From the NCBI GenBank assembly GCA_016235165.1, contig JACRLX010000021.1:310001-374000 (forward strand): DNA of 64,000 bases, written 5' to 3'. The notes below the pieces were generated by a model, which saw only the letters and a list, made by a program, of their open reading frames with translations, searched no databases and was not told where the DNA came from. Position 1 is the stretch's first letter. Each line of letters opens with the position of its first letter. A program made the position numbers and the translations under genes. This DNA is from Rhodocyclales bacterium. Lineage in GTDB: Bacteria; Pseudomonadota; Gammaproteobacteria; Burkholderiales; Rhodocyclaceae. Positions 261 through 15,404 of the stretch are shown piece after piece.

Positions 261-947
261 CTACTCCTTGACCGCGCTGACGATCCATTCGTTGATCCGG
301 CGTCCGAACAGCTTGTGCGCCGAAAACCCCGAATCGACCACTTTCAGGTGGGGGCTCACGAGATCCACGAATGCCTGCTCGGTCGGCAGGCAATAGCACC
401 GCACCGGCGGCTCGTTGCCTTTCATGCCCCGGAACAGGAATACGTTCGGCTCCACCTGTTCCTGGTTCGTCGAGAATTCCGAATCGTGGTCGTTGATATC
501 GAGAACCACCTTGCCGCCCGGCTTCAGCACGCGCCGGAATTCCGCTAGCAAGTGCTTCACCGCGGACTCGCCGCCCAGCAACGAAAGGATGCTGATGCCA
601 ACCACGAAATCGAAGCTTTCATCGGGATACGGAAGCGCACTTGCCTCGGGATCGATGCGCGACAGGTGCAGCCGTGACCTCAGCTCCGGGCGCGTCGCCA
701 GTTTCCGACCCACCAGGTCGATGGCACCCTGCGCCGCATCGACCGCCTCGACCTCATACCCGCATTCGAGCAGGTGGATCGTGTTTACTCCCGTGCCACA
801 GGCATATTCGAGCACCCGGCCGCGTCCGGGATGACCGAACAGCCAGTATTCGAGGCGAACCAGTTCGAGCGAGGGATAGCGCTTGTCCGATCCCGAGGCA
901 TACACGCCTTCCCACTTCTTGAGCACATCCGCTTGCACCAGTTTCAT
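261..947 (-). CDS. Class I SAM-dependent methyltransferase of the glycan operon
   Basis: A 228-residue Rossmann methyltransferase. Motif I is VLEYACGTGVNTIHLL; the acidic strand-2 end is VEAVDAA; the post-motif region has FDFVVGISILSLLGG and VLKPGGKVVLDIND. It probably O- or N-methylates a sugar or carrier-linked intermediate, but the acceptor cannot be read from sequence. I chose ATG 947 because GGAG sits 6 bases upstream; a TTG at 959 would add four residues but has no ribosome-binding site. It lies between the hydroxyacid dehydrogenase and the acetyltransferase, with gaps of 15 and 4 bases, so it belongs to the same operon. Confidence 0.8.
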   Translation of the reverse strand: MKLVQADVLKKWEGVYASGSDKRYPSLELVRLEYWLFGHPGRGRVLEYACGTGVNTIHLLECGYEVEAVDAAQGAIDLVGRKLATRPELRSRLHLSRIDPEASALPYPDESFDFVVGISILSLLGGESAVKHLLAEFRRVLKPGGKVVLDINDHDSEFSTNQEQVEPNVFLFRGMKGNEPPVRCYCLPTEQAFVDLVSPHLKVVDSGFSAHKLFGRRINEWIVSAVKE

Positions 948-962
948 CGAGTTCTCCAAGGC

Positions 963-1940
963 TCAGTAGCCCAGTTGCTTGTTGACGGGATTGAACAGGT
1001 TCTCGCCCCGCAGGTGGCGGGCGATGTTGTTGCGCACCAGTTCGAAGCTCCTGCGCCGATTGTGATCCGACGGTCCCGCCATGTGCGGCGTGATCAGGAC
1101 ATGGGGGTAGGACCAGAGGGGATGCGCGGCAGGCAGCGGCTCCGGATCGGTGACGTCGAGTCCGACTCCGCGGAACTTGCCGGCGGCGACCGCCTCGGTC
1201 AGCGCGGCCGTATCGACCACCGCACCGCGCGACACATTGACGAAAATGCTGTCGTTTTTCATCGCGGCAAAGTGGCTGCGATCGATCACCTGCAGGGTGC
1301 GCGCCGTGGTGGGCGCGGCGCAGACCACCACATCCGCGCGCGGCAGCTGGGCCAGGAAGTCCTCCGGTCCGTAGAACTCGTCGACCATCGAGAGCATTGG
1401 CGGCAGGTCGTTTGCTATGCCGATCACCGACATGCCGAATGCCTTGACGCGTTCGGCTACCAGCAGCCCGATGCCGCCGAGGCCGAACACCAGGCAGGTC
1501 TTCTTGCGCAGCTCTATCGCCCGCGGCATCTCCTGGCGCGGCTGCCCGCGCAGCAGGCGCGCCACGTTCCGCGACAGGGCAAGGATCAAGGCCACGGCGT
1601 GGTCGGCCACTTCGGGACCCTGAATGATGCGTCCGTTGGTGAACACGAACTCGCCATCGACGAACTCGGGGAAAATGAACTGTTCGACGCCCGCGCCGGT
1701 GCTGTGCACCCAGGCGAGCCGCGGTGCCCGCGCCAGAAGCTCTGCGGAAAAGATGTGCCGGGGACAGCCGACCAGCACGCTGGCGTCGGGCAAGGCAGCA
1801 AGGATCGCCTCGCGGTTGTCGTCCGCGGCGATGAAATCCGCCTCCGGAAAGGTGGCCGTCATTTCATCGATCCACTCCTGGGGAAAACCTGCCGACCTCA
1901 CCAGGAGGATCTTCGGTCTAGTCTGTGTGCCTGCGTGCAT
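963..1940 (-). CDS. D-isomer specific 2-hydroxyacid dehydrogenase
   Basis: A 325-residue NAD(P)-dependent dehydrogenase. The nucleotide-binding signature is FGLGGIGLLVAERV near residue 155. The catalytic set of the family is present: Arg in NVSRGAVVD, an acidic residue in DVTDPEPLP, and His in ITPHMAGPSD. Family members interconvert 2-keto acids and D-2-hydroxy acids. Inside a glycan operon it may supply a hydroxy-acyl decoration, or act on a sugar-acid precursor; this is inference only. The start ATG follows AGGAG by 5 bases, 9 bases after the AsnB-like gene stops. The length is normal for the family. Confidence 0.78.
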   Translation of the reverse strand: MHAGTQTRPKILLVRSAGFPQEWIDEMTATFPEADFIAADDNREAILAALPDASVLVGCPRHIFSAELLARAPRLAWVHSTGAGVEQFIFPEFVDGEFVFTNGRIIQGPEVADHAVALILALSRNVARLLRGQPRQEMPRAIELRKKTCLVFGLGGIGLLVAERVKAFGMSVIGIANDLPPMLSMVDEFYGPEDFLAQLPRADVVVCAAPTTARTLQVIDRSHFAAMKNDSIFVNVSRGAVVDTAALTEAVAAGKFRGVGLDVTDPEPLPAAHPLWSYPHVLITPHMAGPSDHNRRRSFELVRNNIARHLRGENLFNPVNKQLGY

Positions 1941-1949
1941 TCCTGCTCC

Positions 1950-3878
1950 TCAGTCAATGTGCGATTCGTACCATTCGGCGACGCTCCAGAGCTTCCAGAG
2001 AAGATTGCTGAACGAGCAGGTCTCCTCTTCTCTCTGGGCGTCGACCAGCGCCGCCATGAAGCGCGGGTCCAAGGCGCCGCTGCGCAGATAGGCGCCTTCC
2101 ATGAGCATCGCCCGCATCCGCGCGAAATTGCGGAAGAACAGGCTCTTGTAGGCCGGCTGGCCGAAATCCAGGCCCGCCCCCTTGAAGTGTTCGCGCCGCG
2201 CCGCGGGCAGGCCGAACGGCGACTTGGGTCTGTCGAGGGCCTCGCCGGGAAGGACGCCGGACATCACCTTGCGCAGCATGTACTTGGTGCTGCCGTCACC
2301 GATCCGCTGTCGCATCGGCATGCGATACATCAGCCGCACCAGGGCGTCGGAAAGGAAGGGAAAGCGCATCTCGACGCCCTCGCCCATCGACGGGCCTTCC
2401 GCGCGCCGCAGGAGGTTCTCCGGCACCTTCTGTGCATAGTCGATGTAGATCAACTGCTGGTCGAGTTCCGCTGCCGCCCCGCCCTCGGCTGTGGTCTCGG
2501 CGACAAGGCCGCGCACTAGGTCCTTCACCGACCGGGTCGTCTTCGCCGCCGCGCCGAACAGTTCACCCCGGGCATTGTCCCAGTCGATGTTGGCGCCGCC
2601 GCCAAGGAATATGTCGGAGAGCATGCAGGGCCGGTCGCCAAGGGCCGTCGCGTAATCGCCGCGCAGGTAGTAGCGTTCGCCAAGCCAGGCAAACTCCGGG
2701 ATCATCCGGGCCACCACGGCCATATAGTGATCGTAGCCGAAGAACATCTCGTCGGCACCTTCACCGGAAAGGGCGACATTGACCCCGGATGCCGCTGCCG
2801 TGCGCGCCAGCCGCTGGACGACACTGTCGATGACACTGGAGGTCGGCAGGTCGAACTTGCCGAGGTCGGCGACGACGTCATCGACCGAAACGATGATCTC
2901 GTGGTGCTCCGTCTGGTAATGCTTCGCCATGCGGCCGGCGAAAGCAACTTCGCCGATTGCCCTGCCCGATTCGGCATGGGCGAATCCCGCGGAAAACGTC
3001 TGGATGGCCAGACCGGGATGAATCTTTCTCAACAGCGCGAGCACGGTCAGGGAATCGATTCCGCCGGAAAGATAGATTCCGACTTCCTTGTCGCCCAGCA
3101 TGCACTCCTTGACCGAGGTTTCAAGGGCTTCCCGTATCGCCTCGACCCATTCCCGCTCGTCCAGCGAGCGGTCGACCGAGAAGAAGTCGTCTCCGGGCAC
3201 ATAAAAGCGGCGGCGTTGCGGCGGGGTGCCCACGTCGCCGCCGAGCGCAAACCCGGCCCTCAGGTGGCTGACGCCCTCAAAGAAAGTCCGCTCGTCGCCG
3301 GTCGAATCCTGGATCACGAAGTCGGCGAAGGCCTGGGTGTCCATGCGCCGCGACAGGCCAGGTTGTGCGAACAGGGACTGCGGCGTCGAGCCGAGCACCA
3401 GATGCCCGTGGTGCTCGGCGTGGAACAGGGGCGAAATTCCGTGTGAATCGCGCGCCGCGAGAAACCGCTTCGCCACCGTGTCGTAGCAGACGAAGGCAAA
3501 CTGGCCTTCGAGCCGCGGCAGCACCGCCTCGCCCCAGACCCGAACCGCATTCGCCAGCACCTCCGTGTCGTTGTTGCTGACGAAGGTACAGCCCGCCGCC
3601 TCGAGCTCGCGGCGTAGTCGCCGGTGATTGAAGATTTCGCCGTTCATGACCGCAACCACGCGGCGGTCGTGACTCCAGCAGGGCTGGTTGGCCAGCGGCC
3701 TGGCATCCTGGGTCGCGAGACGCCGGTTGACCAGGCCCACCGTGCCGTCCTCGGAAATCCAGATGCCGCAGGCATCGGGACCGCGGCCGGCGAGGGCCTC
3801 GGCCATCGCCTCCAGCACGGGTCGGTCAACCCGTGGGGACCCACCACCTGTTGCGATGATCGCGCCTATTCCACACAT
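1950..3878 (-). CDS. AsnB-like glutamine-hydrolysing amidotransferase
   Basis: A 642-residue asparagine synthase (glutamine-hydrolysing) family protein. It begins MCGIGAII, so the processed Cys1 nucleophile of the class II glutaminase domain fixes the start. RGPDACGIW and the NGEIFNHRRLR segment continue that domain. The ATP pyrophosphatase domain starts near residue 250 with the PP-loop GIYLSGGIDS, followed by GEGADEMFFGYDHY. Relatives in O-antigen clusters (for example WbpS of Pseudomonas aeruginosa O6) amidate uronic acids; that role fits the uronic-acid genes upstream in this operon. It starts 2 bases after the preceding stop, so translation is probably coupled. An ordinary asparagine synthetase role cannot be excluded. 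Confidence 0.85.
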   Translation of the reverse strand: MCGIGAIIATGGGSPRVDRPVLEAMAEALAGRGPDACGIWISEDGTVGLVNRRLATQDARPLANQPCWSHDRRVVAVMNGEIFNHRRLRRELEAAGCTFVSNNDTEVLANAVRVWGEAVLPRLEGQFAFVCYDTVAKRFLAARDSHGISPLFHAEHHGHLVLGSTPQSLFAQPGLSRRMDTQAFADFVIQDSTGDERTFFEGVSHLRAGFALGGDVGTPPQRRRFYVPGDDFFSVDRSLDEREWVEAIREALETSVKECMLGDKEVGIYLSGGIDSLTVLALLRKIHPGLAIQTFSAGFAHAESGRAIGEVAFAGRMAKHYQTEHHEIIVSVDDVVADLGKFDLPTSSVIDSVVQRLARTAAASGVNVALSGEGADEMFFGYDHYMAVVARMIPEFAWLGERYYLRGDYATALGDRPCMLSDIFLGGGANIDWDNARGELFGAAAKTTRSVKDLVRGLVAETTAEGGAAAELDQQLIYIDYAQKVPENLLRRAEGPSMGEGVEMRFPFLSDALVRLMYRMPMRQRIGDGSTKYMLRKVMSGVLPGEALDRPKSPFGLPAARREHFKGAGLDFGQPAYKSLFFRNFARMRAMLMEGAYLRSGALDPRFMAALVDAQREEETCSFSNLLWKLWSVAEWYESHID

Positions 3879-3880
3879 GC

Positions 3881-5713
3881 TCAGACACCCGCTTTCAATA
3901 TCGCCCGCACCGCGCCGATCGGTTCCTGGAGACAGGCTGCCCCGCGATCCGGCAGGACGGCGGCACGCAAGCCGGGCACCGACGGCAGGCCCAGGCGCAG
4001 CCCTTCGATCACGCTGGGAGTCCATTCGAAGTCGAGAAAGACGTAGGGCATTCCCGAGCCATCGACCCAGCCCAGCGTGCTCTGCGTGCTCGCGGTCACG
4101 CTGAGGTCCGCGGCAAACCTGACGAAGCGGAAATCGATGTCGCCGACGATCCGCAGGTTGGAATGCTCGGCGACCAGGTCGGAAAAGTCGTAAGTGTCCG
4201 CATAGCGCTGCGTGGGATACAGCTTGAGTATCACCACAGAACGCGGGAAGGCCCTGCACAGCGTCATCGTGATATCCCGGGTCTTCTGCATGAATTGCAG
4301 GTCGTTGTCTTGGCTGGGGCCGTAGATGAAGTTGTTGCGTTCGAGATCCGGCACGATCATGACGACGTGCTGATCGGGGGCGATGCCCAGCAGTTGCCTG
4401 CCAAGGCGACGCTGCAGACCGCGGACCAGTGGCCTGGCGGTAACCCTGGGCAGGCCGACCGCGTGCATTTCCTGTCCGGGCGCATGCAGTCGGACCGCCT
4501 CGATGGCGCGGGAGCAGTGATAAAAGGCGCGGTCCGCCGCCAACATGCCGGCCTGGCGCGCCTCGGACAGGCTCCATTCGGAAAGTCCCAACGTGACGCC
4601 GTGGTCGAATGCGCACACGGACGTCCGGCGCCACGAGCAGTATCCGTAGAAGGCGCCTTCCAGAGGGCTGGTCAACGCGTTCGACAGAATCTCGTCGCCA
4701 GGGCGAACCCCCGCCAGGCTCTTCTCAAACCCGAGCGCCAGCGCGTCGAGGTTGCGGTGAAGAATTTCCAGGAAGGCAAGGCAGCGCTCAACCGTCAGCT
4801 CGAACGCGGCCCCGAACTCGGGCAGGCACTTCACCGCATGCACATCGAGAGCCTCGCGCAAGCCTTGGTTCAAACGCAGGGCAACGGAGTCGCCATCGGG
4901 CAGCCCGTGGATCTCGGCACCACCGAGGTCGACCCGCGGCAGGGCAGGCAGGAAAGCCAGCCGGACGCCGCCCATGAGCAGCCCGGCCGTGGCTTCCTGG
5001 ATCAGCTCGCACTCCTTGTGCACCCACAGCGTCCGGCCGGCCAGGAAGGGACGCAGGCTGATGCCGCGCCGGGGCAATACGCCGCGCCGATGCAGATGCT
5101 TCCAGGCCTTGAAAAGCAGCGAGCCCCAGGTATTGTTGATCAGGCTGAGGACCTTCTCCACGCCCTCCAGCCGGCGGTGCCGGATGCGCGTTTCGAGCTG
5201 CGATGCCTCGCCAGGCGGCAGCTCGTGCTGCACGACCCGAATCCCGGCGGAAGCGAGCTTGCCCGCCAGCATGGCGAACACCGTATCGATGCGGCCAAAG
5301 TTCAGCGCAAACGACTCAAGCGCCGGTGCGCGCGGATTCCCGACACAGACCACAGGCTCGGAGCCAGCTGCGGCCACGATCCGCGAGAGCAGTTTCGCCT
5401 TGTAGAGCAGGACGAAGGCCAACCGGGTCAGCTGGAGCGCCAGCACGAATCGAAAATGCACGAATCGCGCCCAGGCGCAATTCGCCTGGTACCAAGCGCA
5501 AAAGCCGTCGCCGAAATCGCGTGCCGCGCGTGCCAGGGCATCGAACTCGGCCTGGGCGAGTCCTTCTTCCGGCGAGCGCACGCTCTCCCCCAGTCCGGGC
5601 AACTGCTGTAGGAGGAAAGGCGACGTCGTCCACCAAACTCGGGCTCCCGTCGGGTCTGCCGCCCGTACCGATTCGTAGGCGGCGAAGCTCTCGATCACGG
5701 TGTGGACGGCCAT
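3881..5713 (-). CDS. Unrecognised 610-residue glycan-operon protein, possibly a GT-B-like transferase
   Basis: I do not recognise a named family. The start MAVHTVIES follows the aldo/keto reductase stop by 4 bases. The N-terminal third is helical with no signal peptide. The middle has FDHGVTLGLSEWSL, reminiscent of the QHG-type acceptor segment of surface-carbohydrate transferases. The C-terminal half has VVMIVPDLERNNFIYGPS, then VVILKLYPTQRYADTYDFSD, and SVTASTQSTLGWVDGSGMP followed by YVFLDFEW. That alternation resembles the nucleotide-binding half of GT-B glycosyltransferases and capsule biosynthesis proteins. Its place inside the operon supports a role in assembling or transferring an unusual sugar. 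Function unproven. Confidence 0.55.
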   Translation of the reverse strand: MAVHTVIESFAAYESVRAADPTGARVWWTTSPFLLQQLPGLGESVRSPEEGLAQAEFDALARAARDFGDGFCAWYQANCAWARFVHFRFVLALQLTRLAFVLLYKAKLLSRIVAAAGSEPVVCVGNPRAPALESFALNFGRIDTVFAMLAGKLASAGIRVVQHELPPGEASQLETRIRHRRLEGVEKVLSLINNTWGSLLFKAWKHLHRRGVLPRRGISLRPFLAGRTLWVHKECELIQEATAGLLMGGVRLAFLPALPRVDLGGAEIHGLPDGDSVALRLNQGLREALDVHAVKCLPEFGAAFELTVERCLAFLEILHRNLDALALGFEKSLAGVRPGDEILSNALTSPLEGAFYGYCSWRRTSVCAFDHGVTLGLSEWSLSEARQAGMLAADRAFYHCSRAIEAVRLHAPGQEMHAVGLPRVTARPLVRGLQRRLGRQLLGIAPDQHVVMIVPDLERNNFIYGPSQDNDLQFMQKTRDITMTLCRAFPRSVVILKLYPTQRYADTYDFSDLVAEHSNLRIVGDIDFRFVRFAADLSVTASTQSTLGWVDGSGMPYVFLDFEWTPSVIEGLRLGLPSVPGLRAAVLPDRGAACLQEPIGAVRAILKAGV

Positions 5714-5717
5714 GTCT

Positions 5718-6638
5718 TCAGTGCAGTTGCCAGCATGACGGATTGACGAATTTTTCGTCGTCAAGCGCAAAGCGTGAAAAATCGATTGCCCCGAAACTGC
5801 CGCAGGCAAAGTCGTGGATATTCGTTGCGAGGTGTTCCGGCCCATCCACTCCAACCAGAACGACGTCCGCACCAATCGAGGAAGCAAACGCCAATGCCCC
5901 CTGCGCGGGACTCAAACCGGCATCTTGCAATGCCCCTCTCCATTCCTCCAGGTCCCGGCGAATCGGCGCGAAATAGCTTGGCAAGGCTGCGGGTGCGAGC
6001 AACAGCAGCCCCTGCAGGAAAACCGAGCGCACATGAACCTCGACGCCCCGGCGCTTCAAGCGCTCGATCTGCCCTCCGCTGAGCAGACGCTGGTCGAGGA
6101 CGTTGACCGGCACCTGCACCAGATCGATGTCGAAGCGCGAGAGCGCCGCGTCGATGTCTTCGCCGCGATAGGCCGACAGCCCGATCCGCTCTACCCGGCC
6201 CTCATCCTTGAGCCGGCTCATTTCGGCATAGGTCTCCTCCCCTTGCGCACCGAGCAGGTCTGCCGCATGGTGCGCCAGGAGTCCGTACAACGACGGCATG
6301 CGCAGGCGCTCCAGCGAGCGCATGAATCCCGAACGGACCACGTCCCGCGCATCGGCGCCGGGGTGTGCCTTCAGCGGCGGCGTCTTGGTAACCACGCACC
6401 ACCCGGCACGCGGTTCCAGGCAGTCGCCCAGCACCGTTTCCGATTCACCGTAGGCGGCGGCCGTGTCGAGGAGGCGGATACCGTTCCGCTCCGCCATGGC
6501 GATGATCGCCCTGACCTCATCCCGGCTGGTCCTGCCGCCTGCATTGGCAATGCCGTAGTCCATGCCGAACTGCACCGTACCCAGCCCCAGCCGTGTGGCG
6601 GACCTCGTTTCGCTGTCTTGAGCGACGACCAGCATCAC
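5718..6638 (-). CDS. Aldo/keto reductase of the glycan operon
   Basis: A 306-residue (beta/alpha)8 oxidoreductase. The active-site elements are visible in order: LGLGTVQFGMDYGIAN, Asp and Tyr in LLDTAAAYGESE (about residues 58-69), Lys in VVTKTP and His in LLAHHAADL. Related reductases occur in sialic, legionaminic and pseudaminic acid loci, where they are thought to modify the sugar or its side chain. GTG at 6638 overlaps the pseC stop by 4 bases, and the next codon is an ATG (6635); either may initiate. The tight overlap implies co-translation with PseC. Confidence 0.8.
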   Translation of the reverse strand: MMLVVAQDSETRSATRLGLGTVQFGMDYGIANAGGRTSRDEVRAIIAMAERNGIRLLDTAAAYGESETVLGDCLEPRAGWCVVTKTPPLKAHPGADARDVVRSGFMRSLERLRMPSLYGLLAHHAADLLGAQGEETYAEMSRLKDEGRVERIGLSAYRGEDIDAALSRFDIDLVQVPVNVLDQRLLSGGQIERLKRRGVEVHVRSVFLQGLLLLAPAALPSYFAPIRRDLEEWRGALQDAGLSPAQGALAFASSIGADVVLVGVDGPEHLATNIHDFACGSFGAIDFSRFALDDEKFVNPSCWQLH

Positions 6639-7804
6639 GATGCCAGGGCAGCCGCCAGCGCACCGATGACGCGGTCCTGGCCAGCGACATCGAGCGAAGG
6701 AAACAGGGGCAGGCTCAGGGCAGACCGATAGTGGCGTTCCGCTTCCGGGAACATCCCCTCCGCAAAACCCATTGCCTGGAAATACGGCTGGGTATGCACC
6801 GGAATGTAATGCAGGGCTACACCGATGCCCTCATGCCGCATTGCGCCGAAGACCCTGTCGCGCAATCCGCCGCCGTCGGACGACTCGATGCGAACCACGT
6901 AAAGGTGAACCGAGGAGCGATTTCCCGCATCGCGCCGCGGCACCCGCAATGGCAGTTTCCCGAAGGCGGCATCGTACCTGTCGGCCAGGGCATTGCGGCG
7001 CGATACAAACTCGTCGAGGCGACGCATCTGGCTCAGGCCCAGCGCGGCGTGGATATCCGTCATCCGGTAGTTGAAGCCGAGGGCGATCTGCTGGTAGTAC
7101 CAGGGGCCATCCGGCGCGTGCGTCATGCGTTGCGGATCGCGGGTGATGCCGTGGCTGCGCAGGAGTTCCATACGTTCCGCCAGATCGCGACGCCTGGTCA
7201 GCGCCATGCCTCCTTCGCCGCTGGTGACGATCTTCACCGGATGGAAGCTGAACACCGTGACGTCGCTATACCTGCAATTGCCAACGGTGTCGCCGCGATA
7301 GCGGGCCCCGATCGCATGCGACGCATCCTCGATCACGGCAAATCCGTACTCGGCGGCAAGCGCAGCGATGGCCTGCATGTCACACGGCTCGCCGGAGAAA
7401 TGAACCGGTATCACGACTTTCGGCAAGCCACCCGCTCTGCGTGCCTGTTCCAGTTTTTCACCCAGGCAGGCGACGCTCATGTTGCAGCTGTGCGGATCGA
7501 TGTCGACGAAGTCCACATCGGCGCCGCAGTACAAGGCGCAATTGGCACTGGCAACGAAGGTGTTCGGGGCAGTCCATACCCGATCGCCGGGACCGACGCC
7601 GAGCGCCAGGCAGGCCAGGTGCAGCGCGCTGGTTGCGCTATTGACGGCAACCGCGTGGTCAACCCCGCAGTAGTGGGCGACTGCCGCCTCGAAGGCAGGT
7701 ACCGTCGGTCCCTGGGTCAGGAAGTCCGAACGCAGGATTTCGACGACGGCAGCCACGTCATGCTCGTCGATATCGTGCCGCCCGTAGGGAATGGGATCAC
7801 GCAT
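6635..7804 (-). CDS. pseC: UDP-4-amino-4,6-dideoxy-N-acetyl-beta-L-altrosamine transaminase
   Basis: A 389-residue DegT/DnrJ/EryC1/StrS PLP aminotransferase. It begins MRDPIPYGRHDIDEHDV and has SDFLTQGPTVPAFE, both typical of PseC. The PLP lysine is in FSFHPVKIVTSGEGG near residue 183. It transfers an amino group from glutamate to C4 of the 4-keto sugar made by PseB, the second step toward pseudaminic acid. Its first 8 bases overlap the end of the sulfotransferase gene. Length matches PseC. A related 4-aminotransferase of another 6-deoxy-amino-sugar path is the main alternative. Confidence 0.9.
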   Translation of the reverse strand: MRDPIPYGRHDIDEHDVAAVVEILRSDFLTQGPTVPAFEAAVAHYCGVDHAVAVNSATSALHLACLALGVGPGDRVWTAPNTFVASANCALYCGADVDFVDIDPHSCNMSVACLGEKLEQARRAGGLPKVVIPVHFSGEPCDMQAIAALAAEYGFAVIEDASHAIGARYRGDTVGNCRYSDVTVFSFHPVKIVTSGEGGMALTRRRDLAERMELLRSHGITRDPQRMTHAPDGPWYYQQIALGFNYRMTDIHAALGLSQMRRLDEFVSRRNALADRYDAAFGKLPLRVPRRDAGNRSSVHLYVVRIESSDGGGLRDRVFGAMRHEGIGVALHYIPVHTQPYFQAMGFAEGMFPEAERHYRSALSLPLFPSLDVAGQDRVIGALAAALAS

Positions 7805-8546
7805 CGGGGGACTCGGGGACCTGGATTTTTCCGGACGACAGCGCTTCGGTCAGCCGGCCCAATTTTCCGAACAGCAACTGGTCGCGAGGATCCAGCTTCC
7901 ATCCCCGCAGGATGGTCCGCAGCGTGCCGTTGGGGATGAGCCTGTTCACCATCCTCGCGAGGGCAATGGTCAAGGTGCCATAACGGGAGACATTGTGGCT
8001 TCCGGATTTTTCGAGCGCGGGAACATCCGCGCCGATGAAGGCGCACAGGTCGCCGAGGAACCTGGCTCGATCCTCGCGCAACTGTTCCTGCGAAAGTACC
8101 AGGAGTTTCACGCCACGCGCACCCAGACGCTCCTCGAGTTCGACGCGGACATTTTTCCAGCGCGCGAGCCCGGTGTTGGTCCGGCACCAGTCTTCGATCG
8201 ACGACACCCCGCCTTCCTTGATCGTCTGAAAGTACAGCGAGCGCGTCCATGACCGGAATTCCCTGACGACCAGGATCACGTGGGTGATCGCGAACAGTTC
8301 GATCAGAAAGTCGAGCCGTTCGTAGTTGGGCCCTTCCGTCAGGGGATACGGCCAGCCCAGGCCACCTTCGGTCGAGATCAGCGGAATTTTCGCCAGGTCC
8401 GCATCGCCGCGCCGAAGGTAGTTGCCGAGTGCGAAGCCCTCCAGGTAATTGACGCCGGCAAGCGCGGGAAAGACCGTCTTCTGGAGAAAGGTCGAGCCCG
8501 ACTTGTGCAAGCCCACATGCATTACCCTGGCCGGCATGCTCGTCAT
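7797..8546 (-). CDS. Sulfotransferase family protein
   Basis: A PAPS-type sulfotransferase fold. MHVGLHKSGSTFLQ near the N-terminus is the 5'-phosphosulfate binding loop. ILVVREFRSWTRSLY near residue 92 matches the 3'-phosphate binding strand and helix with its conserved Arg and Ser. The C-terminus has GSHNVSRYG. It would move a sulfuryl group from PAPS onto a hydroxyl or amine, presumably of the glycan encoded around it. Starts are ambiguous: GTG 8558, ATG 8546 (used here, GGAG 11 bases upstream) and ATG 8537 are all in frame before the conserved loop. It sits between pseB and pseC, an unusual location. Confidence 0.75.
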   Translation of the reverse strand: MTSMPARVMHVGLHKSGSTFLQKTVFPALAGVNYLEGFALGNYLRRGDADLAKIPLISTEGGLGWPYPLTEGPNYERLDFLIELFAITHVILVVREFRSWTRSLYFQTIKEGGVSSIEDWCRTNTGLARWKNVRVELEERLGARGVKLLVLSQEQLREDRARFLGDLCAFIGADVPALEKSGSHNVSRYGTLTIALARMVNRLIPNGTLRTILRGWKLDPRDQLLFGKLGRLTEALSSGKIQVPESPDA

Positions 8547-8576
8547 CCCGAGTTTCACTCCCGAACCTGTCAGTCC

Positions 8577-9575
8577 TTAAACGTGTTGCGCGATCAGGTC
8601 GCGAATCTGTTCCACGCTGAGGAAGTCCGGATTGGTTCCGCTGTTGTATGCATACCCCTGGCGGACACGTTGGGCGCTGAATTCGCGGCAATACTCCTCG
8701 ATGCCGTAATTGCCGCCCTGCGGCAGGATGGCAAAATAGTCGCCGCGATCGACGGTGTTGTAGCTGTCGCTGTCGGTGATCATTTCTTCGTGGATCTTCT
8801 CGCCGGGGCGGATGCCGACCACCCGTTGCTCGCACTCCGGGCCGACGGCGGTCGCCACATCGACGACGCGATAACTGGGAATCTTGGGCACGAAGATCTC
8901 GCCACCCTTGGCATTCGCCAGCGCCCAGAGCACCATCCTCACGCCCTCGTCGAGGCTGATGTTGAAACGCGTCATTGCAATATCGGTGATCGGCAGCACG
9001 CCGGACTTGCGGCGTTCCAGGAAGAACGGGATCACCGAGCCGCGGCTACCCATGACATTGCCGTAGCGCACCACGCTGAAGCGCAGATCGCGCTTGCCGC
9101 GGATGTTGTTCGCGGAAACGAACAGCTTGTCCGAGCACAGCTTGGTTGCGCCATAGAGATTGATCGGCGCCGCCGCCTTGTCGGTCGAAAGCGCGACGAC
9201 GCGGCGAACGCCGGAGGCAAGCGCGGCCTCGATCACGTTCTGCGCCCCGAGAACATTGGTCTTGATGCACTCGAACGGGTTGTATTCCGCGGTCGGGACC
9301 TGCTTGAGGGCGGCGGCATGGATCACCACGTCGATCCCTTCCATCGCCCGCCGCAGGCGGTCGGCATCCCGTACATCGCCAATGAAATAGCGTATCCCCG
9401 GGAAGCGGTCCGTGTCGAACTCCTGCGACATCTCGTACTGCTTCAGCTCATCGCGACTGAAGATCACCAGGCGAGCTATGCGCGGCGCTCGCTCGAGGAC
9501 GGCGCGGACAAAAGCACGGCCGAAGGAACCCGTGCCCCCCGTGATAAGGATGTGTTTGTCGTTCAGGTCTTCCAT
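8577..9575 (-). CDS. pseB: UDP-N-acetylglucosamine 4,6-dehydratase (inverting)
   Basis: A 332-residue SDR-type dehydratase/epimerase. HILITGGTGSFGRAFV is the NAD(P) loop, SRDELKQYEMSQEF is characteristic of the PseB/FlaA1 group, and the catalytic region reads STDKAAAPINLYGATKLCSDK with Tyr and Lys. It removes water from UDP-GlcNAc and inverts C5 to give the 4-keto-6-deoxy-L-sugar used by PseC. The start MEDLNDKHIL gives the usual PseB length; an in-frame extension to 9647 lacks homology. It begins 13 bases after the WbpB-like gene stops. Confidence 0.92.
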   Translation of the reverse strand: MEDLNDKHILITGGTGSFGRAFVRAVLERAPRIARLVIFSRDELKQYEMSQEFDTDRFPGIRYFIGDVRDADRLRRAMEGIDVVIHAAALKQVPTAEYNPFECIKTNVLGAQNVIEAALASGVRRVVALSTDKAAAPINLYGATKLCSDKLFVSANNIRGKRDLRFSVVRYGNVMGSRGSVIPFFLERRKSGVLPITDIAMTRFNISLDEGVRMVLWALANAKGGEIFVPKIPSYRVVDVATAVGPECEQRVVGIRPGEKIHEEMITDSDSYNTVDRGDYFAILPQGGNYGIEEYCREFSAQRVRQGYAYNSGTNPDFLSVEQIRDLIAQHV

Positions 9576-9588
9576 GGCCGGCTCCGCT

Positions 9589-10647
9589 TCAATACTCGAG
9601 GGGCAGGGCCACTTTGCGGCCGTCCCTGGCAGAAAGGTAAAGTGCAATCAGGATTTCGAGCGACTTGAGCCCTTCCCGTCCGTCCGTATCCGGCTCCGCC
9701 TTGCCGCGCAAGGTGGCAATCACATTTTCGTAGTAGCGTGGATGACCGAAGCCGTACACCGAGGTTGTTTGGTAACTGGCATCTTTGGTCTGCTCGTCGT
9801 CGGGATGCGCGTCGGCGAATTGCCACTGTTCGATCTGGTTGACGGCAACTCCGCCGATGCGGACGGTACCTTTTTCTCCCAGGATGGTGATGGACCCTTC
9901 GAGGTTCTTCGGGAAGGTCAGCATGCTGACGTTGACCGTACCCAGGGCGCCGCTGCGCCAGCGCAGGCAGGCCACGCCCGAGTCTTCGACCTGAATATTG
10001 CGCGCCAAGGTCCCGGTGTAGGCCATCACGCTGTCCACCGGACCGATCAGCCAGTCGAGCAGATCGATGTAATGGCTGGCCTGGTTCATGAAGGCACCGC
10101 CATCGAATTCCCAGGTCCCGCGCCATTTGGCCGAATCGTAGTATTCCTGGGGGCGGGTCCAGAAGACGTTTATGGCGACGGAGTAGATGCGGCCGAACCT
10201 GCCTTGCTCCACTGCCCGCTTGACCAGCCTCAGCGTATCGTTGCACCGATTCTGCTTGACGACAAAGAGACGCACGCCGGCCTCATCGCAAGCACGCACC
10301 ATCTCGACGCCGTCGCGCCAGCGCGTTGCCATGGGCTTTTCGGTCATCACGTGACATCCGGCCTTTGCCGCCGCTATCGCCTGCCCGGAATGCAGGCCAC
10401 TAGGCGTGGCGATCACCACGATGTCCGCCCCGCATTCGCGTACCATCTCGACATGCGAACGGTAAGGTCTGGCGCCGGTTCGGGAAGCGGCCTTGTCGAG
10501 AGCCGCGGAGTCCACGTCACAGACTGCGACCACCTCGACATCGTTCGCATGCTGCTCCAGGGCAGCGAAATGATTTGCCGCAATCCGTCCGCAGCCGGTG
10601 AGCGCAAATCGGATCTTGCGATCCGTTATCGGTTGCATGTTCTTCAT
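9589..10647 (-). CDS. Gfo/Idh/MocA oxidoreductase, WbpB/WlbA-like UDP-GlcNAcA 3-dehydrogenase
   Basis: A 352-residue dehydrogenase. The Rossmann start is RFALTGCGRIAANHFAAL, and the family signature is VMTEKPMATRW with the catalytic EKP. FDGGAFMNQASHYIDLLDW supplies the helix with the conserved His. In the WbpA-B-E-D pathway this enzyme oxidises C3 of UDP-GlcNAc uronic acid before transamination. Its neighbours here are exactly a WbpE-like aminotransferase and a WbpD-like acetyltransferase, each joined by 4-base overlaps, which supports the assignment. The 6-dehydrogenase WbpA and the epimerase WbpI are not in this window. Confidence 0.85.
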   Translation of the reverse strand: MKNMQPITDRKIRFALTGCGRIAANHFAALEQHANDVEVVAVCDVDSAALDKAASRTGARPYRSHVEMVRECGADIVVIATPSGLHSGQAIAAAKAGCHVMTEKPMATRWRDGVEMVRACDEAGVRLFVVKQNRCNDTLRLVKRAVEQGRFGRIYSVAINVFWTRPQEYYDSAKWRGTWEFDGGAFMNQASHYIDLLDWLIGPVDSVMAYTGTLARNIQVEDSGVACLRWRSGALGTVNVSMLTFPKNLEGSITILGEKGTVRIGGVAVNQIEQWQFADAHPDDEQTKDASYQTTSVYGFGHPRYYENVIATLRGKAEPDTDGREGLKSLEILIALYLSARDGRKVALPLEY

Positions 10648-11768
10648 CGGCCTGCTCTCTGGTTTTCGTTGATCGACGCGGCCAGCGCTGCGACGATCCG
10701 GTCCTGATCTGCATCATCGAGGTCCGGTCCCATCGGCAGGCTAAGCACAAGGCTGGCCGCCATCTCGGCTGCCGGCAGCGGCACGCGGCAGCAATCAATG
10801 CCGGCAAATGCCGCCTGGCGATGAAGCGGAACCGGATAGTGCACTGCTGTGGGTATTCCTGCCGCGTTGAGTGCGGCCGCAACGGCATCACGTTGCCCAA
10901 CCTGAATCGTATATTGCGCATAGACACTGGTGTTCCAGGGCGGGATGGTCGGGGTCACCACGCCGGGGCAGGTTGTTGCGATCCGTTGCGAGTAGCGCCT
11001 GCCGATCTCTTCCCGCCGCGCCACCTCCCAATCGAAGCGATCGAGCTTGGCCAGCAGCACGGCCGCCTGCAAGGTATCGAGTCGGCCGTTGATGCCAATG
11101 CGGGGATGGTGATAGCGCCTGTCCTGGCCGTGAACACGGATCTCGCGCATCGCCTTGGCCAAGTCGTCGTCATTAGTGAATAACGCACCGCCATCGCCAT
11201 AGGCACCGAGCGGCTTGCTGGGGAAAAAGCTGGTCGAACCAATGGTCGAGAGCCCGCATGAGCGGCGGCCCTTGTAGCGCGCGCCAAAGGATTGTGCGGC
11301 GTCTTCGATCACGGGCAGTTTGTGGCGACCGGCAATCGCCGTGATTGCATCCATGTCGGCGCACTGCCCATACAGGCTGACCGGCATCACGGCGCGCGTC
11401 CGCGGGCTGATCGCAGCCTCAATCTTTTCGGGATCGAGGTTGCAGGTCTGGGGATCGATGTCGACGAAGACCGGGGTCGCTCCCAGCAGCGCGATCATCT
11501 CGCCCGTCGCGATGAACGTGAACGGAGTAGTAATCACTTCGTCGCCCCGACCAATGCCGAGTGCCATCATCGCGATCAACAGCGTATCGGTGCCACTGCT
11601 GGCCGAGATGCAGTGCCTGACACCAACATAGGCGGCAAGGCGCTCCTCGAGTTCGGCAACCTCGGGCCCCATCACATACTGGCCGTGTTCCAGGACGCGG
11701 TCGATGCGCGCGCGGATATCGGACTGCAAAGCCCGGTATTGCGCCTTCAGGTCAATGAACGGGATCAC
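10644..11768 (-). CDS. DegT family aminotransferase, WbpE/WlbC-like
   Basis: A 374-residue PLP aminotransferase that starts with [17 protein letters not shown] is the classic WbpE/WlbC N-terminus. The PLP lysine is in [19 protein letters not shown]. It should transfer an amino group to C3 of the 3-keto uronic acid made by the adjacent WbpB-like enzyme, giving a 3-amino sugar. The GTG overlaps the acetyltransferase stop (GTGA), and the 3' end overlaps the WbpB-like start (ATGA), so the three genes form a coupled unit. An upstream in-frame extension to 11828 lies inside the acetyltransferase gene and is rejected. Confidence 0.88.
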
Positions 11769-12349
11769 TGTTCGATCCGCTCGCAATAGCCATCCACCAG
11801 CCGGTAGCGCTCGCCGGTCGTCCGGCAAACCGCCTCGGCCGCACCTTCCAGTGGCAGATCCAGTCTTTCGCCATGGCGACTCATCCAGCCGATCTGTCGC
11901 GCGGGAACCCCAACCATCAGGGCGTAAGGCTTGACGTCGCGATTGACAACGGCACCGGCAGCGACAAAGGCAAATTCGCCTACCGTGATGCCGCAGACCA
12001 CAGTACAGTTGGCGCCAAGCGTGGCGCCGCGTCGCACCAGTGTACGGCGGTACTCACTCTTTCTCGCCACGGCGGCACGCGGGTTATATACGTTGGTGAA
12101 CACCATGCTGGGGCCACAGAAGACGTCGTTCTCCAGGGTCACGGCGTCGTATATGCTGACGTTGTTTTGCACCTTGACGTTGTCGCCCAGGCTGACGTCG
12201 TTGCCAACGAAGACATTCTGTCCAAGTGAGCAGCCGCGACCTATGCGTGCGCCACCGCAGACATGTACCCAATGCCAAACTCGCGATCCCTCGCCTATGC
12301 TGGCGCCGGGGTCGACGATCGCCGTCGGATGTATGCTGACCTCGCTCAC
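11765..12349 (-). CDS. Left-handed beta-helix N-acetyltransferase, WbpD/WlbB-like
   Basis: A 194-residue hexapeptide-repeat acetyltransferase. Repeats run from [19 protein letters not shown] through [14 protein letters not shown] and [18 protein letters not shown] to [19 protein letters not shown]. Members of the WbpD/WlbB family acetylate the 3-amino group of UDP-2-acetamido-3-amino uronic acid, completing UDP-GlcNAc(3NAc)A. It starts with GTG after a GAGG element. It is the first enzyme gene downstream of the ops-like element, and its stop overlaps the WbpE-like start by 4 bases. After about residue 150 the tail leaves the helix ([13 protein letters not shown]). Confidence 0.88.
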
Positions 12350-12375
12350 TCTTCCCTCGAAACATGCGTTTTGGG

Positions 12376-12387
12376 CACGCTACCGCC
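12376..12387 (-). promoter_or_regulatory. ops-type RfaH recruitment element
   Basis: On the transcribed minus strand the sequence reads CAGGGCGGTAGCGTGCCC. The 12 bases GGCGGTAGCGTG match the ops core known from enteric RfaH-controlled LPS and capsule operons (GGCGGTAGNNTG). It lies 67 bases past the stop of the rfaH-like gene and 26 bases before the GTG of the wbpD-like gene, on the non-template strand of the operon, as required for RfaH loading. The match is seen directly; use by the adjacent RfaH-like protein is inferred. Confidence 0.75.
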
Positions 12388-12393
12388 CTGCCG

Positions 12394-12415
12394 GTGCGCA
12401 TCCCATAATGCGCAC
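12394..12415. promoter_or_regulatory. Palindrome GTGCGCA-N8-TGCGCAC just upstream of the ops element
   Basis: Perfect 7-base arms separated by 8 bases, 6 bases upstream of the ops element in the direction of transcription. It could form an RNA hairpin next to ops or be a protein-binding site. Its outer ends (GTGCG...CGCAC, 22 bases in all) match those of the palindrome in front of the MarR-type gene (13314-13336, 23 bases), suggesting a shared regulator. Confidence 0.4.
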
Positions 12416-12453
12416 AGCATGAATCCCGCGGCGCCTCAGGCGCAGCGCTTACG

Positions 12454-12960
12454 CTAAGCCGCCAACTCCAGGGCCGACGGCACAAGCCTGACGCGGGTAT
12501 CGTTGCCGAGGAGCTGCATCAGCACCTCGACCCTTTTTGCCGAAACGGAGGACACCAGTCCTTCCAGTCCGGCCAATGGCCCTTCCACCACTGTGACCCG
12601 GCTACCAGGCACGATGGCGCTCAACTCCTCAATGCTGTACAGATTCTGCCGCGACTCCAATTCATGGATTGCGTCCAACTTTTCCGCATCGAGTACGGCC
12701 GGCTCCGTGCCGAAACGAACCACTCCCAGCACGCCAAGCGTTGAACGCACCGGCGCAATCGACTGCGCTTCGCGCCCGGGCCTGAAGAACAGATACTGTG
12801 GAAACATGGGCTCCAAGCGAAATACCTGCTGACGGCGGATGCGGCGCAGCACCTTCAGGCGCGGCAGGTAAGCCGCATAGCCCTGACGCAGGAGGTTGGC
12901 TTCGGCCACCGATTCCTGGCGCGGTTTGGTCCGCACGACATACCAGATACCAGCGCTCAC
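12454..12960 (-). CDS. rfaH: RfaH/NusG-like transcription antiterminator
   Basis: A 168-residue NusG paralogue. The NGN domain begins IWYVVRTKPRQESVAEANL and continues with YLPRLKV, then MFPQYLFFRP. The C-terminal KOW part reads IVPGSRVTVVEGPLAGLEG. RfaH proteins load on RNA polymerase paused at ops sites and suppress termination in long surface-polysaccharide operons. Here an ops match lies just downstream of the gene and the long operon follows. The start is a GTG overlapping the MarR-type gene stop (GTGA). A generic NusG role is unlikely given the locus and the absence of secE/rpl neighbours. Confidence 0.85.
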   Translation of the reverse strand: MSAGIWYVVRTKPRQESVAEANLLRQGYAAYLPRLKVLRRIRRQQVFRLEPMFPQYLFFRPGREAQSIAPVRSTLGVLGVVRFGTEPAVLDAEKLDAIHELESRQNLYSIEELSAIVPGSRVTVVEGPLAGLEGLVSSVSAKRVEVLMQLLGNDTRVRLVPSALELAA

Positions 12961-13301
12961 GTCCTCTCCACCCCTACCTTGGCGGCCAGTTCTTCGCGCA
13001 ACTCGGCGATCTCGCGGTGCAAGGCAAGGTACTCGGCTTCCTTGTGCTGCAGAAAATCCCGCGTGAGATTGAGCTTGGCTGCGATACCCGAGGGTGTCAG
13101 CTTGTAAACATAGGCCAGCTTGTTGTCATGGCGGCGGAAATTACCCATCTTGACCAGGCCCTTGTCGAGCAGAGCCTTCAGCAGATAATGGGTCTTGCCC
13201 AGGCTGACCCCCAGTTCGCCCGCCAGCTCACGCTGGCTGATCTCGGGGCGGTCCTCGATCAACCGCAAGATACTGAAATGTGCCTTTTCTCTAAGGTTCA
13301 T
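12957..13301 (-). CDS. MarR family EPS-associated transcriptional regulator
   Basis: A 114-residue winged-helix protein. ISQRELAGELGVSLGKTHYLLKAL is the helix-turn-helix region (the conserved part is about residues 21-44), and GNFRRHDNKLAYVYKLTPSG is the wing. A charged helical tail ending ELREELAAKVG probably dimerises. The pattern matches the small MarR-like regulators found at the head of exopolysaccharide loci in proteobacteria. It is the promoter-proximal gene, translationally coupled to the RfaH-like gene. A perfect palindrome lies between its start and a putative promoter, consistent with autoregulation. The effector is unknown. Confidence 0.82.
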   Translation of the reverse strand: MNLREKAHFSILRLIEDRPEISQRELAGELGVSLGKTHYLLKALLDKGLVKMGNFRRHDNKLAYVYKLTPSGIAAKLNLTRDFLQHKEAEYLALHREIAELREELAAKVGVERT

Positions 13302-13313
13302 CGTGCCTGGGGG

Positions 13314-13336
13314 GTGCGTTCAATCGCTGAACGCAC
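13314..13336. promoter_or_regulatory. Candidate operator: GTGCGTTCA-N5-TGAACGCAC
   Basis: Perfect 9-base inverted repeat with a 5-base spacer, 12 bases upstream of the marR-type ATG and directly downstream of the putative -10 box. That is the classical position of an autorepression site. No U-tract follows on either side, so a terminator is unlikely. Confidence 0.6.
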
Positions 13337-13338
13337 GA

Positions 13339-13365
13339 AGTCTAGCACATCCTTTTGAATTCCAA
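13339..13365 (-). promoter_or_regulatory. Putative promoter of the regulator/glycan operon
   Basis: On the minus strand a -35-like TTGGAA (13365-13360) and a -10-like TAGACT (13344-13339) are 15 bases apart; shifting the -35 by one base gives TTTGGA at 16. A TG one base before the -10 makes an extended -10. The region is AT-richer than its surroundings. The upstream fcl gene ends at 13384 with no clear terminator, so read-through from fcl is also possible. Confidence 0.45.
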
Positions 13366-13383
13366 AGGCTTTCTTTTAACCTG

Positions 13384-14319
13384 CTAATTGCGGTAGCGCC
13401 CGAGAAAGTCCTCGCAAGCCAAGGCTATACCCGCAGATAGGGAGGTCCGGGCATTCCAGCCCCGCTCATGCAGGCGGCTCACGTCAAGTACCTTACGGAG
13501 CGTTCCATCCGGTTTGCCAGCATCAAAAACGATGCGTCCATCGAAGCCGGCCGCGCGCATCACGGTCTCGGCCAATTCCCGGACGGTGAGGTCGGTGCCG
13601 GTACCGACGTTAAAGAGTCCGTCCGGGGTCCCGGCACTCATGAGAAAGACGCAGGCATCCGCGAGATCATCGACATAAAGAAACTCCCTCCGCGGAGTAC
13701 CGCTGCCCCACACCACCAACTCTTTGTCACCCCGCAGTTTTGCCTCGTGCGCCTTGCGAATCAGCGCCGGCAACACATGGCTGTTGGCCAGGTCGTAATT
13801 GTCGTTGGGACCATATAGATTGGTCGGCATCACTGAAAAATACTGCCGGCCGTACTGACGGTTGTAGCTTTCACAGAGTTTGATTCCGGCGATTTTGGCG
13901 ATAGCGTAAGGCTCGTTGGTTGGCTCCAGCGGACCGGTCAGCAAATACTCTTCCTTGATCGGTTGCGGGCAATCGCGCGGATAGATGCAGCTCGACCCGA
14001 GAAAACACAGGCGTCCGACTCCGGCGAGATGGGCGCCGTGGATCAGGTTGGCCTCGATCATCAGGTTCTGGTAGATGAAGTCGGCACGCAAAGTATTGTT
14101 GGCGTGAATGCCGCCGACCTTCGCCGCCGCAATGAAGATGAAATCCGGCTTTTCGCGGCATAGAAATTCGCGGGTTGCGGACTGGTCGAGCAGGTCGAGT
14201 TCGACGTGGGTCCGGGTCAGGATGTTTGTGTACCCTCCCGCCGTCAGCCGACGCACCAGCGCCGACCCCACCATGCCGCGGTGGCCGGCCACATAGATTT
14301 TCGCCGTCCGATCCATCAT
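13384..14319 (-). CDS. fcl: GDP-L-fucose synthase
   Basis: A 311-residue SDR epimerase/reductase. It has [18 protein letters not shown] (NADP loop), [14 protein letters not shown], and Tyr/Lys in [17 protein letters not shown]. It converts GDP-4-keto-6-deoxy-mannose to GDP-L-fucose by 3,5-epimerisation and 4-reduction. It starts within ATGATG overlapping the gmd stop, so ATG 14319 or 14316 may be used. It is the last gene of manC-gmd-fcl and supplies a sugar for LPS or EPS assembly. Confidence 0.93.
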
Positions 14320-15404
14320 TCGTGACGGTCCATGGCCTTGTAGCCATGCTTCTTGACCAGTTCATCCCGCTCGGCGGCCTTGAGGTCCTCGCGCACCATT
14401 TCCGCGACAAGTTCGTCGAAGCTCACCTGCGGGGTCCAGCCCAGCTTCTCCTTTGCCTTGGTGGCATCGCCCAGCAGGGTTTCGACTTCGGTCGGCCGGA
14501 AGTAACGCGGATCAACCTGGACGATGCACTTTCCCTGGGTGTCATAGCCCTTTTCCTCGACACCAGCGCCCTTCCAGGTGACGCTGATGCCGATTTCCTT
14601 GGCGGCGGCATTGACGAACTGGCGCACGCTGTATTGCACGCCGGTGGCGATCACGAAGTCGTCTGGGGTTTCCTGTTGCAGCATCAGCCATTGCATCTCG
14701 ACGTAGTCCCTGGCATGGCCCCAGTCGCGCTTGGAGTCGAGGTTGCCGAGGAACAGGCAGTCCTGCAAACCGAGCTTGATGCGGGCCAGGGCGCGGGTGA
14801 TCTTGCGGGTAACGAAGGTTTCGCCCCGGATCGGGCTTTCGTGGTTGAACAGGATGCCGTTGCAGGCATAAATTCCGTAGGCTTCGCGGTAATTGACGGT
14901 GATCCAGTAGGCGTAGAGCTTGGCCACGGCGTAGGGGCTGCGCGGATAGAAGGGGGTGGTTTCCTTCTGCGGGGTTTCCTGGACCAGGCCAAAGAGTTCG
15001 GAGGTGCTGGCCTGGTAGAAGCGGGTTTTCTTTTCCAGGCCAAGGATGCGGATGGCTTCGAGCACCCGGAGTGCTCCCAGGGCGTCGGAGTTGGCGGTGT
15101 ATTCCGGTTCTTCGAAGCTGACCGCAACGTGGCTCTGGGCGGCGAGGTTGTAGATTTCGTCGGGCTGCACCTGCTGGATGATGCGCACCAGGCTGGAGCT
15201 GTCGGTCATGTCGCCGTGGTGGAGGACGAACTTGCGGTTCGTTTCGTGCGGATCCTGGTAGAGGTGGTCGATGCGGTCGGTATTGAAGAGCGAGCTGCGG
15301 CGCTTGATGCCATGCACTTCGTAGCCCTTGTCGAGCAGGAATTCGGCAAGGTAGGCGCCGTCCTGGCCGGTGACGCCGGTGATCAATGCGACTTTGCTGG
15401 TCAT
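14316..15404 (-). CDS. gmd: GDP-mannose 4,6-dehydratase
   Basis: A 362-residue SDR dehydratase. [19 protein letters not shown] is the cofactor loop, [19 protein letters not shown] is diagnostic of GMD, and [19 protein letters not shown] carries the catalytic Tyr and Lys. It makes GDP-4-keto-6-deoxy-D-mannose from GDP-mannose. Both ends overlap neighbours by 4 bases (manC upstream, fcl downstream), indicating coupled translation of the GDP-fucose pathway. Confidence 0.95.

Follow-up and report, generated by a model that had tools for sequence, protein, structure and literature searches.

In a Rhodocyclales bacterium, a gene encoding an RfaH-like NusG paralog lies between a gene for a MarR_EPS regulator and an exact ops element at the head of a run of glycan genes, and this cassette recurs widely in related bacteria. 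We consider it likely that MarR gates initiation, and that the RfaH-like protein loads at a pause formed by an RNA stem-loop together with ops and carries polymerase through the gene run. The original prediction for this locus, a self-contained control cassette, is thus supported. The window, that is, the whole stretch of DNA analysed, comprises 64,000 nucleotides (assembly GCA_016235165.1, contig JACRLX010000021.1, positions 310,001 to 374,000), and coordinates refer to it unless a contig position is given. The relevant features, in the order of transcription, are:

13339..13344, minus strand: tentative -10 box TAGACT just before the predicted operator, placed by eye
13314..13336 (core 13318-13332), minus strand: 23-base perfect palindrome GTGCGTTCA-GCGAT-TGAACGCAC, predicted MarR operator
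12957..13301, minus strand: MarR_EPS transcriptional regulator, 114 amino acids (TIGR04176, 145.5 bits, cut-off 88)
12454..12960, minus strand: RfaH-like NusG paralog, 168 amino acids, NGN and KOW domains (Pfam NusG, 64.8 bits)
12389..12419, minus strand: RNA stem-loop TGCTGTGCGCATTATGGGATGCGCACCGGCA, with the 3' arm ending one base before ops
12376..12387, minus strand: ops element GGCGGTAGCGTG, signal for RfaH recruitment and pausing (exact match, conserved beside rfaH relatives)
11765..12349, minus strand: hexapeptide-repeat acyl/acetyltransferase, first gene after ops (Pfam Hexapep)
10644..11828, minus strand: DegT/DnrJ sugar aminotransferase (Pfam)
9589..10647, minus strand: Gfo/Idh/MocA sugar dehydrogenase (Pfam)
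8577..9647, minus strand: PseB-type UDP-GlcNAc 4,6-dehydratase (TIGR03589, 514.5 bits)
7797..8558, minus strand: open reading frame with a weak Sulfotransfer_3 match below cut-off
6635..7804, minus strand: PseC-type aminotransferase (TIGR03588, 544.6 bits)
5718..6638, minus strand: aldo/keto reductase
1950..4634, minus strand: asparagine-synthase-like amidotransferase, beyond a 1083-base gap
963..1940, minus strand: 2-hydroxyacid dehydrogenase
261..959, minus strand: methyltransferase; minus-strand ORFs extend left past the window edge

The exact ops core that had been predicted on the minus strand is present at 12376-12387. It is identical to the ops of the Escherichia coli K-12 rfb and waaQ leaders and is the sole exact copy in the 4.47-Mb genome, where the reversed pattern occurs four times. 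Near matches with up to two mismatches are not enriched in the window (10 found, 12.1 expected). The predicted distance of 26 bases to the first enzyme gene, whose GTG lies at 12349, holds, whereas the distance from the end of the rfaH-like gene (12454), previously given as 67 bases, was counted as 66. Based on the genome's 12-mer rate, the chance of finding the exact 12-mer on the right strand of this 104-base gap is of the order of 1e-5 to 1e-4. As is characteristic of RfaH, the ops element stands in the leader of the target genes, and the observation of an antiterminator next to an exact ops at the head of a glycan gene run is confirmed.

The window protein has the NGN plus KOW architecture of RfaH, with the KOW domain scoring 22.2 bits, just under the Pfam cut-off of 22.3. 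Among five NusG-type NCBIfam models, the best was TIGR01955 (RfaH), with 102.6 bits and under its cut-off of 144.5, and the LoaP model NF033641 reached 57.2 bits against a cut-off of 125, which does not place the protein in LoaP. Two NusG-domain genes are present in the genome, NusG and the RfaH-like gene. At the E. coli base-contact positions K10, H20, R23 and R73, the window protein carries K, N, R and L. In an alignment of 88 proteins, in which the genome's own NusG, a simple ORF pick, served as comparison and tree root, Q24, G74 and R138 (E. coli numbering) were found in all 88, E48 in 86, T72 in 84 and K10 in 77. The position of H20 held N in 73 proteins and H in 10, that of N70 held R in 83, and that of R73 held R in 25.

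AlphaFold can miss one of two folds. The model of the window protein (56 sequences; mean pLDDT 93, pTM 0.72) shows the KOW domain as a beta barrel, and for a distant cis-encoded relative, modelled to look for an alpha KOW, the KOW was also predicted as a beta barrel (pLDDT 82, pTM 0.58). Foldseek matches of the window model include activated RfaH (8phk) and NusG. The autoinhibition-related residues E48 and R138 are kept in nearly all or all aligned proteins while the KOW domain is predicted to be beta. Given this predicted fold, ops may not be needed for activation of the protein.

The marR and rfaH-like genes overlap by 4 bases. Upstream of marR, at 13318-13332, lies the only occurrence of GTTCA-N5-TGAAC in this genome. 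Across 51 nonredundant marR loci, a set from which loci short of sequence or more than 80% identical had been left out, this motif was exact upstream of marR in 38 and had one mismatch in 2 more, and base-shuffled upstream stretches of the loci contained no exact copy. A -10-like box could be seen by eye before the predicted operator at many of these loci; in the window, a sigma70 consensus scan gave no promoter-like site on this strand at the proposed promoter. The position of the predicted operator near the tentative promoter fits repression by MarR_EPS. The proposal that MarR gates initiation thereby gains a predicted operator, while repression itself we infer.

The absence of the 12-mer from orthologous loci had been named as the result that would speak against the prediction, and the 12-mer was found there. 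A profile scan of named genomes yielded 491 RfaH relatives, the best 80 of which were taken as loci (806 kb). These 80 came mostly from named Rhodocyclales, Burkholderiales and other betaproteobacteria, with some gammaproteobacteria, and the closest named relatives among them were Sulfuritalea and other Rhodocyclales. The ops core pattern, in which either positions 1 and 10 or position 5 may hold any base, occurred 58 times on the rfaH strand of the 80 loci and once on the opposite strand, compared with two occurrences of the reversed pattern on both strands together. Within 2 kb downstream of rfaH, NGCGGTAGCNTG was present in 53 of the 80 loci and absent in 27, and the exact 12-mer was found within 400 nt in 20 of them. 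In a first set of loci, exact ops elements 60-192 nt past the rfaH stop were found in 12 distinct loci, including the window, although several of these had been retrieved with the ops pattern in the first place. In one further locus (L032) ops lies farther on, past marR, and in another (L006), where the gene is cut, marR likewise precedes ops.

A class-wide sample, drawn against favourable picking, comprised 274 genomes, 63 of which (the window's included) contained an RfaH relative at E<=1e-24. At the 62 other loci, the ops core was found 26 times in sense and never in antisense orientation, with 5 matches of the reversed control. It lay up to 3.5 kb downstream of rfaH in 23 of the 62 loci and upstream in 3; in 39 there was none within 3.5 kb, in some through lack of sequence, and among the 55 loci whose downstream sequence reached 1 kb or more it lay downstream in 22. 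The named and class-wide loci are not independent, since two pairs (L209/L124 and L213/L116) are probably repeats. The flanks of the core GCGGTAGC, which is found repeatedly on the coding strand of these loci, are varied. Two loci (L089 and L096) carry CATTGCGGTAGCTATTGT after rfaH, in which the core is kept and the pause-inducing TG at positions 11-12 is missing. The ops-bearing RfaH relatives in records named as gammaproteobacteria were not part of the original prediction, and neither were the ops variant and the stem-loop joined to ops described below.

The window hairpin has a predicted energy of -17.7 kcal/mol, and none of 50 shuffled sequences was as stable; a 46-nt fold that includes ops was weaker (z -1.86) and was matched in stability by 14 of 200 shuffles. 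When ops sites are aligned, an inverted repeat ends right before ops, with letters that differ from site to site. Anchored folding with shuffles took the place of an earlier fixed stem-score threshold. Each site was scored by its most favourable single hairpin among those with a 3' arm terminating 0-2 nt ahead of ops, and this score was compared with dinucleotide shuffles. The stem-loop ranked second or better of 50 at 27 of 45 nonredundant sites, against 2.6 expected, whereas ops copies away from rfaH, used as a control, reached this rank in 3 of 25 cases (L042, L053 and L054), and the first of these, next to a partial RfaH match, is probably a real ops site. After 26 of 97 ops sites had been removed as redundant at 70% identity or more, 34 of the remaining 71 had a stem-loop at p<=0.05, against 3.6 expected, the other 37 lying above 0.05. 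The mean stem energy over the 71 sites was -9.7 against -4.4 kcal/mol, and moving the anchor 8-10 nt away left 3 significant sites. At positions -4 to -2 before ops, G, C and A were the commonest bases (48, 57 and 61 of 71, respectively). The two E. coli ops sites were not significant in the anchored stem test (p 0.71 and 0.15). A search with the JUMPstart model RF01707 gave no match at E<=5 in window positions 11000-14500, nor in a set of nine loci (the window's and eight relatives'), whereas both E. coli leaders match. An intrinsic terminator was also considered and was rejected, as the scan of the window stretch returned 0 sites.

According to passages of PMC5995543 and PMC11001881, polymerase pauses with U11 of ops as the pause position. 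A stem that ends 0-2 nt before G1 therefore leaves 11-13 nt to U11. For hairpin pauses, the relevant part of a review (PMC7797061) gives a hybrid of 8-9 nt plus an optimum of four nt, or 12-13 nt. For the E. coli ops complex, passages of PMC11001881 report 10 resolved RNA nucleotides and an 11-bp hybrid once RfaH binds, and there the cryo-EM complex is described as distinct from hairpin-stabilised pauses. Considering a hybrid of 10-11 bp, about 0-3 nt would be left before the stem, under the four-nt optimum, and, given this tight spacing, a two-part signal of stem and ops is put forward here as a putative one.

The co-occurrence of ops with RfaH was followed across genomes. Besides the window's, 31 genomes of the family encode a MarR_EPS protein over cut-off, and 13 of them have an RfaH relative, split from NusG by a wide E-value gap. 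In all 13, the ops core is found at the locus of MarR or of RfaH, exactly in 12 and as TGCGGTAGCCTG in one. In contrast, the core was found in none of the 17 MarR loci inspected among the 18 RfaH-less genomes (the locus of G027 was left out), although three of the 17 genomes (G066, G085 and G172) gave no NusG-family match, so that in these the absence of RfaH is less certain. In one RfaH-less genome (G181), a core match lies close to a locus at NusG level (L165). Across the 274 genomes, the extended pattern GCAN-ops occurred at 28 places in 25 genomes, compared with 4 for the reversed pattern, and it was present in 22 of 63 RfaH-positive and 3 of 211 RfaH-negative genomes (Fisher p 5e-13, uncorrected for kinship). 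The three sites in RfaH-negative genomes lie inside stop-free frames of 1464-2941 nt, and one of them (L269) shows a stem near ops in a simple fold without shuffles.

In RfaH-positive genomes, seven ops sites (L272, L278, L280, L289, L290, L291 and L292) are located on other contigs or 560 kb from rfaH. They lie in stop-free frames of 159-594 nt, and in 6 of the 7 a fold, again without shuffles, places the end of a stem 0-1 nt ahead of ops. These remote sites suggest that some RfaHs may also act at a distance. At the control site mentioned above (L042, on contig 28 of G234), ops is present twice at a distance of about 1 kb, each time with an almost identical stem-loop, near the partial RfaH match; duplication of a loading site whose rfaH has decayed or been cut is a possible explanation. 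Another genome (G239, L297-L302) contains six exact copies of the 12-mer without a common flank discernible by eye, and its match to the RfaH profile is at NusG level only.

Several cassette layouts were distinguished. A MarR_EPS-like gene is present in 36 of the 80 named loci. In addition to the marR-rfaH-ops order of the window, we found rfaH followed by a larger MarR homologue and ops, and rfaH followed by TGCGGTAGCCTG without MarR; a further order, operator-stem-ops-marR, was seen by eye in a few loci. The larger MarR-like protein, encoded between rfaH and ops in nine loci (L098, L103, L112, L118, L122, L124, L125, L127 and L134), looks like a second MarR type. Its gene ends 48-85 nt before ops and has GTTCA upstream, mostly without the full palindrome in the stretch shown. 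Of the ops sites with C at position 10 that lie up to 2 kb downstream of rfaH, all 19 belong to one clade of 38 proteins (support 0.96 in a quick tree). Confinement to this clade was considered and rejected: three RfaHs on the tree lie outside it (L072, with its site upstream of rfaH; L115, with its site 2.5 kb upstream; and L157, whose site is in L004), and L263 is not on the tree. One clade member (L141) has a G10 site 5 kb away. Given these exceptions, the variant is concentrated in one RfaH clade rather than confined to it.

Downstream of ops, at least 12 overlapping or closely spaced genes had been predicted. This holds for the first seven, which are tightly packed over 6.6 kb (12349 to 5718; gaps of -64 to 18 bases) and are followed by a 1083-base gap (4635-5717) without a recognisable gene, where four ORFs tried between the aldo/keto reductase and the amidotransferase gave no Pfam match. 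Minus-strand ORFs form a chain that reaches contig position 290964, at a distance of about 31 kb from ops; it contains five additional gaps (0.45-1.04 kb) that could still hold plus-strand genes. The tightly packed 6.6 kb perhaps extends as one operon over the whole of this distance. A GAGGGAAG stretch at the first gene after ops resembles a ribosome site, while RfaH targets are said in a passage of PMC7819879 to lack ribosome sites. Directly upstream of marR, at 13384-16861 on the same strand, are genes for a GDP-fucose synthase-like protein, a GDP-mannose 4,6-dehydratase and a mannose-1-phosphate guanylyltransferase/isomerase, separated from marR by a gap of 82 bases, so that the cassette forms part of a larger glycan cluster running in one direction. 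This cluster also includes a short gene resembling an ATP-dependent DNA ligase (DNA_ligase_OB_2; 16898-17749, minus strand).

We propose that MarR_EPS, bound to the palindrome near its own promoter, would repress initiation, and that its release would allow a leader transcript to yield MarR and the RfaH-like protein. Polymerase would then reach a two-part stop signal, made of ops and the nascent RNA stem-loop 11-13 nt behind U11, where the non-template strand of ops may fold into a small DNA hairpin read by RfaH. Once loaded, RfaH would oust NusG and take polymerase, probably along with a ribosome, across the sugar genes. The single exact operator and single exact ops in the genome suggest that the pair serves one operon. 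The analysis demonstrates the anatomy, the single copies, the conservation on the coding strand, the co-occurrence with RfaH and the stems of varying sequence at a constant position; we infer protein binding, pausing, antitermination, dependence of expression on RfaH and a signal that releases MarR. A broader reading, in which non-enteric ops is a two-part signal of an RNA hairpin in the exit channel and a DNA hairpin in the non-template strand, a non-autoinhibited cis RfaH still needs ops, and the reading of ops predates both fold-switching and the H20 and R73 contacts, is offered tentatively, as possible rather than probable. If true, it would imply an order opposite to the current view that ops contacts came late.

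An alternative to which we assign a minor, still appreciable probability is that the RfaH-like protein is monomorphic and always active and loads in cis without ops, so that ops and stem would be a mere pause, for example for ribosome loading, or remnants. The beta-barrel KOW predicted for both the window protein and its distant cis-encoded relative would suit such a protein, as would the lack of conservation at R73 and H20, and parts of the preprint PMC13015549 describe cis-encoded monomorphic RfaHs as active without ops. However, this leaves aside that the core recurs on the coding strand amid varied flanks, that it is missing from the inspected MarR loci of RfaH-less genomes, and that ops sites remote from rfaH occur in RfaH-positive genomes. 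The conserved ops at window-type loci argues against ops independence of cis beta-KOW RfaHs.

Instead of forming an RNA pause hairpin, the inverted repeat before ops might be bound as DNA by a dimeric protein or might act as a terminator, a reading we hold to be unlikely. Although inverted repeats suit DNA-binding dimers too, and the spacing to the ops hybrid is tight, the letters of the arms change between sites while pairing is kept, and the position is tied to ops, as the displaced anchor indicates; a terminator is further opposed by the lack of any terminator-like site in the window stretch. A purely coincidental occurrence of the 12-mer, in a genome rich in GC, has a very small probability. 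Of 61 relatives, 39 have exact copies, 56 in total, compared with 136 copies of the reversed pattern, and the genome with six copies has just a NusG-level match to the RfaH profile. Such raw counts are therefore uninformative, and position, strand and flank alone carry the signal: position and strand are conserved, and ops co-occurs with RfaH.

Among known systems, the cassette most likely acts like RfaH-ops/JUMPstart control, with the addition of an antiterminator encoded locally, a repressor gene next to it and, in many cases, a marked RNA stem. Since the cut-offs of TIGR01955 and RF01707 were not reached by score, we call it a variant of this control. With E. coli RfaH-ops it has in common the 12-mer, an NGN plus KOW NusG paralog and glycan target genes, and the residues K10, R23, Q24, T72, G74, E48 and R138 are the same. 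It differs in three residues (H20 to N, N70 to R and R73 to L), in a KOW predicted to be beta, in an rfaH that adjoins its target and a MarR gene, in the strong stem-loop before ops, and in the single exact ops of this genome, compared with 16 given for E. coli in a passage of PMC7819879. The pertinent part of Weinberg 2010 (PMC2864571) notes that JUMPstart elements, which it lists for gammaproteobacteria, include a conserved stem-loop. The window locus likewise has a stem-loop directly before ops upstream of polysaccharide genes, whereas window-type stems are unrelated in sequence, are placed after the rfaH gene and lack an RF01707 match.

A search of the open-licence literature, which most subscription papers lie outside, found no paper on RfaH-ops in betaproteobacteria and none on a MarR_EPS operator. 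Passages of Wang 2020 (PMC7593976) report RfaH relatives among glycan genes, argue that the DNA contacts are late and name E. coli RfaH as the only representative with a detailed recruitment mode. The cluster CL4 of that study adjoins an HTH regulator and is possibly the same gene pair, and its passages on CL4 give no ops, stem-loop or operator. LoaP and the dfn leader share with the cassette a NusG paralog and a leader RNA hairpin; in the relevant passages of PMC12691694, the hairpin bound by LoaP is a UNCG hairpin that hardly differs between its two leaders, whereas here the stems vary and a DNA ops is present.

The 2026 preprint PMC13015549, in the passages on the topic, links cis-encoded beta-KOW RfaHs to ops independence and trans-acting alpha-KOW RfaHs to ops. 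The monomorphic cis RfaHs of Idiomarina and Pseudidiomarina described there resemble the window type in the adjoining long operon, a predicted beta KOW and the absence of some ops contact residues. Those RfaHs are treated in these passages as ops-independent, whereas ops is present and conserved in the window type. Cis loci that combine ops, a varied stem, altered contacts and a predicted beta KOW may provide a test for the time of origin of ops reading, of autoinhibition and of the pausing parts. The cassette also provides operator, regulator, antiterminator and stem-ops as compact parts for long operons.
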